DNA of 64,000 nucleotides from Aquirufa beregesia (GTDB lineage Bacteria > Bacteroidota > Bacteroidia > Cytophagales > Spirosomataceae), in the NCBI RefSeq assembly GCF_011090385.1, contig NZ_SEWW01000010.1, positions 1-64,000 of the forward strand. Reading direction: 5' to 3'. The translations under genes were made by a program, and so were the position numbers. This document shows, piece after piece, positions 40,178 to 52,136 of this stretch (within the stretch, counting starts at the first letter, position 1; each line of letters opens with the position of its first letter). Under the pieces are notes generated by a model that ran no database searches, was not told the DNA's origin, and worked only from the letters and a program-made list of their open reading frames with translations.

Positions 40178-40819
40178 ATGGCAACAGCATCAACTACCCA
40201 GAGATTATTCCAACAATTTGAACCTGAATTACTAAAAAAGGTACAACAGGTAGGATTGGTTCGTAAGTTTAAAGCGGAGGAGTATTTAATGCAAACAGGC
40301 CAACAAATCCGTTCGGCTGTATTAGTATTGGACGGTGTTATCAAAGTATTTAGAGAAGACGATGAGGGCAATGAAGTCTTTATGTACAACCTGCATCCTG
40401 GAGAAGCTTGTGCAATTTCTATGACTTGTGCTGCTCGTCAACTCTCTAGTCAAATCATGGCCAAAGCCTTAGTGGACACGGAGGTTTTGGCTATTCCTGT
40501 AGAATTAATGGATGAATGGGCACTTAAATACCGTTCTTGGTACCAATTTGTCTTAGAAACTTACCGCTCTCGTTTTGAGGAACTTTTAGATACGCTGGAC
40601 CACATTGCCTTCCGTAATCTAGATGAACGTCTACTTTGGTACTTAAAACAGCATCAAAAAAGCCTAAAAAGCAACTTTATCAAAACTTCCTTCACAGACA
40701 TCGCATTAGAACTCAACTCTTCCCGTGAAGTCATCTCTCGCCTAATGAAAAAACTGGCTGAAAAAGGCCATGTCAAATTACATAAGAATGAAGTGGAGAT
40801 TCTGAACTTAAAAATGTAG
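40178..40819 (+). CDS. Crp/Fnr-family transcriptional regulator, probable activator of the sulfur island
   Basis: The 213-residue protein has a cyclic-nucleotide-binding-like beta-barrel (about residues 20-120), a dimerisation helix and a C-terminal winged helix. The recognition helix reads S-S-R183-E184-V-I-S-R188, the same R-E-x-x-x-R spacing with which CRP reads GTGA half-sites, unlike FNR (V-S-S-E-T-V-S-R). Matching TGTGA-N6-TCACG palindromes stand before five nearby promoters. C78 and C84 in the barrel (G-E-A-C-A-I-S-M-T-C) could sense persulfide or redox state; no FNR-type N-terminal Cys cluster is present. The ATG at 40178 is chosen because a longer frame from 40124 overlaps the gene upstream. 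Confidence 0.9.
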   Translation: MATASTTQRLFQQFEPELLKKVQQVGLVRKFKAEEYLMQTGQQIRSAVLVLDGVIKVFREDDEGNEVFMYNLHPGEACAISMTCAARQLSSQIMAKALVDTEVLAIPVELMDEWALKYRSWYQFVLETYRSRFEELLDTLDHIAFRNLDERLLWYLKQHQKSLKSNFIKTSFTDIALELNSSREVISRLMKKLAEKGHVKLHKNEVEILNLKM

Positions 40820-40932: not shown

Positions 40933-40977
40933 TGTGATGCTTATCACGCCCAAAGTACCTATAATATTGGAAATTTG
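40933..40977 (+). promoter_or_regulatory. Crp/Fnr-type operator and -7 element of the OprD-like porin gene
   Basis: Palindrome TGTGATGCTTATCACG (40933-40948) is followed by GAAATTTG (40970-40977), one base off TAnnTTTG. The last G lies 44 nt after the first T of the palindrome and 30 nt after TCAC. This puts the operator centre near -41, an activator position. The gene starts 20 nt downstream. Confidence 0.75.
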
Positions 40978-40996: not shown

Positions 40997-42391
40997 ATGC
41001 CGGCAAAAACCACCCATTACCTGATTCTATTCTGGTCATTGTGTATTTTACCCACTGTTCAAGCAAGTCCAACCATCTCCCATACGACAGATTCTATTTC
41101 GGTTTGGAATGCCTTAACAAACGGGAAAATACGACCTAATCTTCGCTATTTTTACATGAACACTGATAATGTAGGTGAGGCATACGATGCTTTCGCCCAT
41201 GGAATAGGTCTGGGACTTTCCTATGAAACCGCTCCTTGGAACCATATAAGCTTGGGAGTAAGTGCCCAATGGATGTACAATATACATTCCAGCTCCTTGA
41301 CACCTGATCCCAAATTTCCTATACTCAATCGTTATGAAATGGGGCTTTTTGATCTGATTCAGCCTCAATCAAAGGATATACTAAGTCGATTAGAAAAATT
41401 ATATGTAGCCTATTCTATCCAAAAATCAAGCATTAAAATTGGGCGTCAAGTCATCAATACTCCTTTTATCAATCCGCAAGATGGAAGACTACGACCTACG
41501 GCTGTATCAGGAATTTGGGTAGATTGGAATAACATATCCAATACTAAAATAGAAGGAGGATTTCTTCAGGCCATTTCACCCCGAAGTACCACGCAATGGT
41601 TTGGTATAGGTGAATCTTTAGGAATATATCCACAAGGCCTAAATCCTGACGGGTCTAAGTCGAATTACTTGGGCAACATTAACTCACAAGGTATCGGAAT
41701 CTTAGGAATCACCCTAAAACAAATGAAACCTTGGAGCATTCAGGCTTGGAATATGTATGTGGATCAAATGATGTACACAGGTATGCTACAAGCGGACGTA
41801 CAATGGTCAACTCATCAACATAGCCAATGGCTTGCAGGTTTACAATACATCGAACAACATGCCGTCCAACATGGAGGAAATCCTGAACCTTCCAAAACAT
41901 ACATGAGCCCTGGTACAATGTCAAGGTCTTTGGGAGCTAAATTTGGTTGGGAAAATAAACAGTGGAAAACCTCCATCAATTACAATAGAATAACGGGAGA
42001 AGGGCGGTATTTGATGCCCCGAGAATGGGGAAAAGACCCATTCTTTACTTTCATGCCCAGGGAAAGAAATGAAGGTTTTGGTGATGTGCAAGCCTTTGTA
42101 GCAAAAGTCACGTATCAATGGAAAAAAATTCCATTAAAGACCCAAATTGCTCAAGGTTATTTTCACCTACCTAATGTGAATGATTTTACTTTAAATAAAT
42201 ATGCCATGCCATCCTATTCACAAACCAACCTAGATATGACCTATGAACCAAAAGGGTATTGGAAAGGTATGAGCTTTTCCATTATTTATGTTTATAAAAA
42301 CCAATTGGAAAGGGGGGACTTGGCCGACAAATTCATCATCAACAAAGTGAATATGAGCCAATTGAACCTCATCATAAATTACAATTTATAG
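40997..42391 (+). CDS. OprD-like outer-membrane porin
   Basis: The 464-residue protein has a signal peptide (C-I-L-P-T-V-Q-A-S) and a beta-barrel pattern of alternating strands with aromatic girdles. The OprD-family features are L-R-Y-F-Y-M-N-T-D, the stretch S-S-I-K-I-G-R-Q-V-I-N-T-P-F-I-N-P-Q-D-G-R-L-R-P-T-A-V and a C-terminal N-L-I-I-N-Y-N-L. OprD porins pass small solutes such as basic amino acids or organic anions. Its position behind the first Crp/Fnr operator makes it part of the sulfur regulon; it may admit thiosulfate or a related anion, which is inference. Confidence 0.8.
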   Translation: MPAKTTHYLILFWSLCILPTVQASPTISHTTDSISVWNALTNGKIRPNLRYFYMNTDNVGEAYDAFAHGIGLGLSYETAPWNHISLGVSAQWMYNIHSSSLTPDPKFPILNRYEMGLFDLIQPQSKDILSRLEKLYVAYSIQKSSIKIGRQVINTPFINPQDGRLRPTAVSGIWVDWNNISNTKIEGGFLQAISPRSTTQWFGIGESLGIYPQGLNPDGSKSNYLGNINSQGIGILGITLKQMKPWSIQAWNMYVDQMMYTGMLQADVQWSTHQHSQWLAGLQYIEQHAVQHGGNPEPSKTYMSPGTMSRSLGAKFGWENKQWKTSINYNRITGEGRYLMPREWGKDPFFTFMPRERNEGFGDVQAFVAKVTYQWKKIPLKTQIAQGYFHLPNVNDFTLNKYAMPSYSQTNLDMTYEPKGYWKGMSFSIIYVYKNQLERGDLADKFIINKVNMSQLNLIINYNL

Positions 42392-42483: not shown

Positions 42484-42528
42484 TGTGATAAAAATCACGA
42501 ATTAGGCCAAATAATTGCTTGACATTTG
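42484..42528 (+). promoter_or_regulatory. Crp/Fnr-type operator and -7 element of the tauE-PDO operon
   Basis: Palindrome TGTGATAAAAATCACG (42484-42499) is followed by GACATTTG (42521-42528). The spacing is the same as at 40933: 44 nt from first T to last G. It rules out a TTG start at 42515 and places the tauE start at the ATG 42554. Confidence 0.8.
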
Positions 42529-48651: not shown

Positions 48652-49668
48652 TCACTTTTTATATGGCCCATACTTATGCCTTTTCTCCGAATAGGAATCT
48701 GCATATGGACCAAAGGGATGATCAAAGGGCTTTTTAGCTATTTTAGGCCAATCATGACTTAGATCCATGCTCGGTCTAGGCATGGAATTGATGTAGGCAG
48801 CTACATCCCAAGCTTCTTCATCGCTCAGTTGAGCTTTTTCATACGTAGTACCCAAGGGCATATTGTATTTCACATAGCCTGCCAAATTGGAGATCCGGAA
48901 CAAACCCGCCCCCTGGTTATAACTATGAACTCCCCAAAGCGGTGGATAGGTATACGATTTTCCTCCTTCGGCTAACACCCCTTCCCCATTGGCCTGATGA
49001 CAAGATTGACATTTACCTTCATACACCATCTTCCCTTTGTCAAGATCGGTGGCTCGTTTCAGAAATTTCAACTTAAAGATCCCTGATCCCTTGGGTTTAT
49101 CCCCTTTGGCTACATCCTTTCCTAGCCATGCGATATAGGCTAAAATGGCCTGCATTTCCTTACTGGTAGAGTCCAGTTTCTTCCCATTCAAACTCCTTTC
49201 AAAACAATCATTGACCCTTTTAACTTGGTTTTCTACAGTCCCCGAACGGGCTCTAAACTTAGGATAAGTGGATTCCACCGCAAAATAATTATTTCCCCAA
49301 GGCTGAGCACCCGCCTTCAAATGACAATTTTGACAATTCATGCCATTGGACATGGCTCTCACTGAGCCTTTAGGCCCCAAATAATCCGATGTATGCGCAA
49401 TCAATTCCCGCCCATACAAAACCAATTCCTTTTGCTTAGGACTTAAATACATCATACGCCAGTCGGAAGGTGCCGTCCACACATGGCTAAAATTGGAATC
49501 TGGCTGAATAAATATAGCACTCGAATCGGCTCTTGTTTCTGTGGATGTCATGGTATGACTTCTTCCAAAAATCAAATATGCCGCCAGACCTAGCAAAAGT
49601 ACAACTAGGCCGTACAAAAATCGAATGAAGGTGTCTATGGATGTCTTAGGGGATTGACTTGTTTTCAT
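48652..49668 (-). CDS. tsdA: Diheme cytochrome c, TsdA-like thiosulfate dehydrogenase
   Basis: The ~338-residue protein has an N-terminal membrane anchor (G-L-V-V-L-L-L-G-L-A-A-Y-L-I-F-G) and two heme sites, C112-Q-N-C115-H116 and C220-Q-S-C223-H224. The stretch V-N-D-C155-F-E-R-S-L-N-G matches the TsdA region that supplies an unusual Cys as the distal ligand of the active-site heme. TsdA joins two thiosulfates to tetrathionate, or splits it, in the periplasm. The ATG at 49668 is used because a TTG at 49695 would overlap the -7 element of its promoter. It is divergent from the sqr gene and shares an operator with it. Confidence 0.88.
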   Translation of the reverse strand: MKTSQSPKTSIDTFIRFLYGLVVLLLGLAAYLIFGRSHTMTSTETRADSSAIFIQPDSNFSHVWTAPSDWRMMYLSPKQKELVLYGRELIAHTSDYLGPKGSVRAMSNGMNCQNCHLKAGAQPWGNNYFAVESTYPKFRARSGTVENQVKRVNDCFERSLNGKKLDSTSKEMQAILAYIAWLGKDVAKGDKPKGSGIFKLKFLKRATDLDKGKMVYEGKCQSCHQANGEGVLAEGGKSYTYPPLWGVHSYNQGAGLFRISNLAGYVKYNMPLGTTYEKAQLSDEEAWDVAAYINSMPRPSMDLSHDWPKIAKKPFDHPFGPYADSYSEKRHKYGPYKK

Positions 49669-49692: not shown

Positions 49693-49737
49693 CAAAATTA
49701 GCTCCTCTTTTTGCCTCTCATAGTGACAAATATCACG
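49693..49737 (-). promoter_or_regulatory. Crp/Fnr-type operator and -7 element of tsdA (minus strand)
   Basis: On the minus strand CGTGATATTTGTCACT (49737-49722) is followed by TAATTTTG (49700-49693), a perfect TAnnTTTG. From the first base of the palindrome to the last G is again 44 nt. The ATG of tsdA lies 24 nt further. The palindrome is shared with the plus-strand promoter at 49722-49766. Confidence 0.8.
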
Positions 49738-49766
49738 AATTACTATGCTTGAATCCTATAATATTA
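49722..49766 (+). promoter_or_regulatory. Crp/Fnr-type operator and -7 element of sqr (plus strand)
   Basis: AGTGACAAATATCACG (49722-49737) is followed by TAATATTA (49759-49766), which matches TAnnTTTG in the TA and the middle T's only. The distance is 44 nt as at the other sites. The weak -7 element suggests that this promoter depends on the activator. Confidence 0.65.
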
Positions 49767-49789: not shown

Positions 49790-50983
49790 ATGAGAATTCA
49801 TCATCAAATTGTCATCATCGGTGGAGGGAATGCTGGAATTTCCGTTGCTAGCCAGTTATTACGTACTGATTCCTCTTTAGACATTGCCTTAATAGATGCT
49901 GCCGACAAACATTATTATCAGCCTGCTTGGACTTTAGTGGGTGGCGGCGTGTATGATATTCAAAAAACCGTTCGCGATGAGGCTTCGGTAATGCCTGACA
50001 AGGTTCGATGGATAAAAGCTATGGTGACGGAGGTTCAGGCCGACAAGAATAAATTGGAACTGAGCAATGGAGAATCCATCTATTACGACTACCTCGTGGT
50101 AAGTCCAGGCATTCAATTGAATTGGTCTGAAATCAAAGGTCTAAAAGAAAGTCTGGGTAAAAACGGAGTTTGCTCCAATTATAGCTTTGAAACAGCTCCC
50201 TATACATGGGAATGTGTACAAGCGCTACCCCAAGGAGGAAAAGTCATTTTTACCAATCCTCATACTCCTGTGAAATGTGGTGGTGCCCCTCAAAAAGTCA
50301 TGTACCTTTCCTCCGACTATTTCAAAAAACACCACAAAGCAGCTGATGTTCAATTTTGGAGTGGTGGAACTCGGGTATTTGGTGTGGAAAAATATGAAAA
50401 AACATTAAAGCGAGTTATACATCGTTATGGGATCAAAACTCAGTTTTTTGTCAAATTAGTGGAGATTGATGGACCAGCTAAAAAAGCCAAATTCGTGGGT
50501 ATAGGAGAAGCTAATAAAGACCACGAATATTGGGTAGATTATGATATGATTCACGTAACTCCACCCCAGTCCGCTCCTGATTTTATTCAAAAAAGCAGCT
50601 TGGCCAATGCCACAGGCTGGGTAGAAGTAGACAAACATAGCCTACAACATGTTCGTTTCCCAAATGTGTTTTCTTGTGGAGACGTAGCAGGTATACCTGT
50701 TTCCAGAACGGGAGCGGCTATACGTAAACAAGCCCCTGTATTGGTGGCCAACTTAAGTTCGCTGATTAAAGGAGAAGCATTAAAGGCATCTTACAACGGT
50801 TATTCATCCTGCCCTATTGTTACGGGATATGGCAAATTAGTCTTAGCGGAGTTTGATTATGATAATGTACCAACGGAAACTTTTCCTTTTGATCAATCAA
50901 AAGAAAGGTGGTCTATGTACCAATTAAAAACTAAAATCTTGCCTTGGCTCTATTGGAATGAAATATTACCCGGTAAAATGTAA
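49790..50983 (+). CDS. sqr: Type II sulfide:quinone oxidoreductase
   Basis: The 397-residue FAD enzyme oxidises sulfide to sulfane sulfur and passes electrons to quinone at the membrane surface. FAD-binding motif G-G-G-N-A-G-I-S-V-A starts it. The pair V-K-C163-G-G-A-P-Q-K and S-S-C341-P-I-V-T-G-Y matches the two redox cysteines of the mitochondrial/type II enzymes. P-F-D-Q-S-K-E-R and the membrane-binding C-terminus (P-W-L-Y-W-N) are also as in that type. C296 in F-S-C-G-D is extra. The persulfide it makes is the substrate of the dioxygenase encoded at 43.4 kb. Confidence 0.95.
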   Translation: MRIHHQIVIIGGGNAGISVASQLLRTDSSLDIALIDAADKHYYQPAWTLVGGGVYDIQKTVRDEASVMPDKVRWIKAMVTEVQADKNKLELSNGESIYYDYLVVSPGIQLNWSEIKGLKESLGKNGVCSNYSFETAPYTWECVQALPQGGKVIFTNPHTPVKCGGAPQKVMYLSSDYFKKHHKAADVQFWSGGTRVFGVEKYEKTLKRVIHRYGIKTQFFVKLVEIDGPAKKAKFVGIGEANKDHEYWVDYDMIHVTPPQSAPDFIQKSSLANATGWVEVDKHSLQHVRFPNVFSCGDVAGIPVSRTGAAIRKQAPVLVANLSSLIKGEALKASYNGYSSCPIVTGYGKLVLAEFDYDNVPTETFPFDQSKERWSMYQLKTKILPWLYWNEILPGKM

Positions 50984-52091: not shown

Positions 52092-52136
52092 TGAGATAAT
52101 AGTCACGCCGACAGATCTAAATCAACGCTACCTTTG
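52092..52136 (+). promoter_or_regulatory. Crp/Fnr-type operator (one mismatch) and -7 element of the rhodanese-thioredoxin operon
   Basis: TGAGATAATAGTCACG (52092-52107) has one mismatch to TGTGA-N6-TCACG in the distal half-site. It is followed by a perfect TACCTTTG (52129-52136). First base to last G is again 44 nt, TCAC to last G 30 nt. The start codon lies 21 nt downstream. Confidence 0.65.

Follow-up and report, generated by a model that had tools for sequence, protein, structure and literature searches.

A candidate shared operator with mirror-image class II geometry between the divergent tsdA and sqr genes of Aquirufa beregesia

Introduction

Can one dimer of a Crp/Fnr-family regulator serve two divergent promoters from a single site, and is this how thiosulfate and sulfide oxidation are coupled in Aquirufa? 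The question is raised by the region between tsdA and sqr in Aquirufa beregesia, a freshwater member of the Cytophagales; this region lies within the window analysed here (the whole stretch of 64,000 nucleotides from contig NZ_SEWW01000010.1). An initial annotation of this DNA had proposed that one operator drives both promoters with mirror-image geometry and that the two promoters could compete for the bound activator. According to PMC3105977, which cites El-Robh and Busby (2002), E. coli CRP is known to activate two divergent promoters from one site, and 11 natural E. coli CRP cases with a site serving divergent promoters are listed there. Operator sharing itself is therefore not new. The new elements are a class II symmetry that is exact and belongs to a sulfur regulon of Bacteroidota, the return of this symmetry with other gene pairs, and a natural series of shared, single and separate operators. 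In our literature searches, no described sulfur-responsive Crp/Fnr regulon of Bacteroidota was found.

Results

The identities of the two flanking genes were verified independently against solved structures. On the minus strand, tsdA (48652..49668, ATG at 49668) encodes a dihaem thiosulfate dehydrogenase related to the solved TsdA 4wqc (E=3.5e-41), and in the alignment its product contained two haem motifs (CxxCH) and the cysteine of DCFERS (DCFERSLNG). On the plus strand, sqr (49790..50983) encodes a sulfide:quinone oxidoreductase of the mitochondrial (SQOR) type, similar to human SQOR 6mp5 over its full length, including PVKCxGAPQK (E=3e-114). The start codons of the divergent genes are 121 bp apart. 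They belong to a sulfur oxidation cluster that also encodes a Crp/Fnr regulator, a porin, a TauE exporter, an MBL-rhodanese of the persulfide dioxygenase type, a rhodanese, two YeeE-type transporters, DsrE, a methyltransferase, a further rhodanese, a thioredoxin and a rhodanese-thioredoxin.

The sole palindrome between the two -7 boxes was the shared operator GTGACAAATATCAC (49723..49736, centre 49729.5), with a GTGA-N6-TCAC core. It had been annotated at 49722-49737; the palindrome is present, but those limits include one non-pairing base on each side. Both -7 boxes were located as annotated, TAATTTTG for tsdA on the minus strand (49693..49700) and TAATATTA for sqr on the plus strand (49759..49766). 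Each was centred exactly 33 bp from the operator centre, with 22 nt separating the operator core from the octamer, and the proposed mirror symmetry was thus exact. The 44 nt previously given as the distance to each box did not correspond to the gap; this figure comes close to the length obtained by counting from the more distant edge of the palindrome through to the outer limit of the -7 box.

In Flavobacterium psychrophilum, the TAnnTTTG box spans -12 to -5 (PMC9723704). Placing the Aquirufa octamers at these positions yielded predicted starts at about 49688 for tsdA and about 49771 for sqr, 83 bp apart and with leaders of 20 and 19 nt, and put the operator centre at -41.5 from both predicted starts, which is the position of a class II activated promoter and agrees with the earlier suggestion of an activator near -41 on either side. 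A -33 element was absent from both sides, where positions -36 to -33 read ACTA and ACGA. Since only a -7 box at a fixed distance was present and no -33 element, both promoters should depend on an activator. The tsdA box fully matched TAnnTTTG, as had been noted, and the sqr box, which had been described as weak, indeed carried two mismatches but proved invariant among most of the genomes compared below. The combined mirrored feature appeared in none of 20 Markov resamples of the window.

We compared this region among 17 genomes with sqr, comprising 16 Aquirufa genomes (our own included) and Sandaracinomonas; among named species, the closest by the sqr gene were A. ecclesiirivi, A. nivalisilvae, A. 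aurantiipilula and A. rosea. In seven of the 17 (our own, G012, G002, G015, G022, G030 and G016), both -7 boxes stood exactly 33 bp from a shared operator. The tsdA box was spaced at 32 in three genomes (G018, G006 and G175) and was replaced at 33 by TAAATTGC in two (G017 and G011), a sequence that fits TAnnTTGY, a -7 variant described in PMC9723704. In G004, tsdA was not found beside sqr, and the tsdA box was lost while the operator and the sqr box were intact. The remaining four genomes had separate operators (G013, G001, G025 and G014). The operator 14-mer was identical in G012, G002, G015, G022, G030, G016 and G004.

The sqr -7 box was identical and located at exactly 33 bp in 13 of the 17 genomes, and we therefore regard this off-consensus box as real. 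Because invariance was confined to TAATATTA at spacing 33, we rejected an alternative sqr box, TATAATTA, located 10 nt downstream. In an operator-anchored alignment of eight diverse species, information content was 1.78 bits per column for the operator, 2.0 for the sqr -7 box and 1.41 for the tsdA -7 box, compared with 0.56 and 0.47 for the two 22-nt spacers. Across the genus, the operator and both -7 boxes thus formed three conserved islands amid variable spacers. As a separate observation, the sqr octamer (49759-49766), which is fixed in those 13 genomes despite departing from TAnnTTTG, is its own reverse complement.

When we examined the four separate-operator species in a phylogenetic context, they formed one clade (support 100/100) nested among the shared-operator species, and the outgroup Sandaracinomonas had the shared form; operator sharing is thus most simply interpreted as ancestral in Aquirufa. 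In this clade, tsdA and sqr are separated by a DUF2202 gene, and all three genes carry operators of their own, with a -7 box at 33 bp that is degenerate in some cases. That tsdA has an operator even when separated from sqr argues strongly for its being a true target. Several observations support the proposed co-control of the two genes: the spacing is exact, both -7 boxes are conserved, other operators of the cluster are spaced alike, the tsdA box is lost where tsdA is gone, and the operators are separate where the genes are apart. As a side observation, the sulfur regulon of this clade appears to include the DUF2202 lipoprotein gene (L067, L068, L071 and L074).

All three other operators of the cluster, each on the plus strand, shared the 33-bp spacing. 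Upstream of the porin gene at 40997, GTGATGCTTATCAC (40934..40947) was followed by the -7 box GAAATTTG (40970-40977). The operator GTGATAAAAATCAC (42485..42498), with the -7 box GACATTTG (42521-42528), precedes tauE and the persulfide dioxygenase gene and was kept throughout the genus, and GAGATAATAGTCAC (52093..52106), with the perfect -7 box TACCTTTG (52129-52136), precedes the rhodanese-thioredoxin genes and was likewise conserved in the genus comparison. We surveyed the genome by pattern searches. The pattern GTGAN6TCAC-N22-NANNTTTG had three exact matches in the 3.2 Mb genome, all inside the sulfur cluster. Chance occurrence of a CRP-like palindrome was considered, given that a one-mismatch search of the window gave 17 matches, the expected number; it was rejected because exact sites with a -7 box at 33 bp were confined to the cluster.

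Allowing one mismatch to the one-sided pattern of operator and -7 box gave four matches genome-wide, three of them outside the cluster: one before a rhodanese gene, one before a TolC-type gene, and a third at L007. The rhodanese gene at the first of these sites (L006:1501-1544, G000:C11:79947) encodes a single-domain protein, is preceded by an operator whose -7 box is spaced at 33 bp, and is followed by an OsmC-like gene. At the TolC-type site (L005:1501-1544, G000:C10:559702), GTAATAAAAGTCAC and TACATTTG at 33 bp lie upstream of a TolC-like outer membrane gene, a possible additional member of the regulon.

The predicted binder of these operators is the Crp/Fnr-family protein encoded within the cluster (40178..40819, plus strand). 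It scored above the cut-off for both PF00027 (39.6 bits) and PF13545 (31.6 bits), representing the cNMP-binding fold and the Crp helix-turn-helix. A C-x5-C pair (CAISMTC) and the recognition helix SREVISR, which contains R-E-x3-R, were invariant in all 30 genus proteins examined. In E. coli CRP, the same R-E-x3-R recognises GTGA. The genome encodes at least two further complete Crp/Fnr proteins, and the first arginine of this motif was absent from those paralogues that were read. The closest solved relative was the Crp/Fnr protein 3dv8 (E=1.2e-17), which by alignment shares the C-x5-C pair. In three other genomes (G070, G072 and G077; L262-L264), a homologue with 41-42% identity, carrying CALSMIC and SREVVSR, is encoded divergently from tauE across a mirrored operator; this placement ties the regulator to the operator and suggests autoregulation through the shared-site design. 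We consider the cluster protein the likely binder of the shared operator, with reactive sulfur species probably acting as the signal at its C-x5-C pair.

We further extended the analysis beyond the genus. Outside Aquirufa, we examined 67 sqr loci; 31 of them had GTGAN6TCAC no more than 120 nt upstream, whereas 0.65 would be expected. At these 31 operators, the plus-strand -7 signal peaked only at spacing 33, where 26 of the 31 octamers begin with TA and the mean number of -7 mismatches was 1.65, compared with about 4.2 at other spacings. The sqr -7 boxes across Bacteroidota often deviate from TTTG, indicating that a weak -7 box is usual for sqr. At two Chitinophagaceae-like loci and one other, a single operator also stood in mirrored position to a thioredoxin or methyltransferase gene running the opposite way, while other loci use two operators.

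When genomes were searched for the mirrored pattern without regard to the encoded proteins, the order yielded 43 positive genomes among 391, representing 21 of 131 genera, and the class yielded 20 among 395, with a reversed-pattern control giving 5 genomes in each case; we quote the controls because these totals include some matches in coding DNA or with a gene on one side only, and, since related genomes are not independent, the counts describe recurrence and not a rate. Many matches adjoin genes that were recognised by eye, from their sequences, as encoding a persulfide dioxygenase, TauE, a rhodanese, a thioredoxin or a peroxiredoxin.

Discussion

Taken on its sequence evidence, the reading of the tsdA-sqr operator as a shared activator site appears well supported: very probably, both genes are switched on from this site by one Crp/Fnr dimer, centred at -41.5 and working in the manner of class II activation. 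The dimer, most likely the product of 40178-40819, would occupy the palindrome and activate the promoters on both sides, that of tsdA on the minus strand and that of sqr on the plus strand. What the analysis establishes directly is the sequence, its geometry and its conservation; from these we infer that the protein activates rather than represses, as well as its identity, its signal and the start sites. Functionally, SQR, persulfide dioxygenase and rhodanese would convert sulfide to thiosulfate, and TsdA would oxidise that thiosulfate; because the product of the former feeds the latter, one signal would turn on consecutive steps. Such a system would define a testable sulfur regulon and operator code for Bacteroidota.

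Not every observation favours activation at both promoters. The operator might belong to sqr only, with an incidental mirror box on the tsdA side and tsdA driven from elsewhere; the sqr operator with its -7 box at 33 bp is widespread, also where tsdA is missing (G004), and in five species the tsdA side is spaced at 32 (G018, G006 and G175) or altered to TAAATTGC (G017 and G011). We nevertheless judge this highly improbable, given a perfect tsdA box at exactly 33 bp in seven genomes whose spacers have diverged, and an own operator with a box at 33 where tsdA is separated. The two mismatches of the sqr box also count against the shared-activator reading.

Another concern is the direction of control. 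Repressors are common among the sulfide and persulfide sensors that belong to other families, and a protein bound at -41.5 would likewise cover the expected -33 position, from which it could block one or both promoters until released by a signal. Repression of this kind seems quite unlikely to us: sequence resembling a -33 element is lacking on both sides and the -7 boxes are weak, which suits activator-dependent promoters, and the centre at -41.5 is fixed across the phylum, a constraint needed for class II activation but not for repression. As for which protein binds, the presence of at least two other complete Crp/Fnr proteins leaves room for a paralogue at this operator, but we hold this to be unlikely, because R-E-x3-R occurred only in the cluster protein among the paralogues read and because, in G070, G072 and G077, homologues of that protein are encoded next to tauE with a mirrored operator in between.

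If a class II activator is indeed shared, the geometry bears on how two polymerases could use it. In class II activation, the two subunits have distinct partners: sigma and the alpha-NTD for the downstream one, the alpha-CTD for the upstream one. At a mirrored site, each subunit would take both roles, a different one towards each polymerase, and the alpha-CTD of one polymerase would need DNA at about -21 of the opposite promoter, so that simultaneous occupancy looks hindered. Competition of the tsdA and sqr promoters for the dimer, as initially suggested, is plausible as an argument from geometry. We tentatively raise the further possibility, though we lean against it, that this is a selected device, in which the dimer holds one polymerase at a time, activation is shared in a fixed ratio set by the -7 boxes, and lineages switch between shared and separate operators upon gene insertion. 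If true, fixed-ratio sharing would apply to the oxidation of thiosulfate and of sulfide, and to crp and tauE in other genera. A natural series is available for asking if two polymerases can be served by one class II activator, from the shared site (most Aquirufa and Sandaracinomonas) through a single-promoter site (Aquirufa ecclesiirivi, in which tsdA is absent) to separate sites (G013, G001, G014 and G025).

The arrangement resembles the divergent sites of E. coli CRP in that one Crp-family dimer site lies between two promoters and controls both. Leaving the distances of the E. coli sites aside, the Aquirufa operator differs in having both sides at -41.5 with predicted starts 83 bp apart, promoters of the Bacteroidota -7 type, and a regulon for sulfur oxidation. 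With class II CRP-dependent promoters it shares the activator centre at -41.5 and a poor -35/-33 region, whereas in Aquirufa two such promoters use one site.

Two further variants were observed elsewhere. In other genera of the family, two loci (L079 and L080; G100 and G173) carried operators of the form GTAAC-N4-(A/G)TCAC with TACTTTTG or TATTTTTG at 33 bp, located upstream of tsdA, tauE and a porin-like gene. The mirrored operator at L220 (G533) has a peroxiredoxin gene on one side and, on the other, a gene for a cytochrome bd oxidase subunit I-like protein, possibly reflecting a wider use of the mirrored design.
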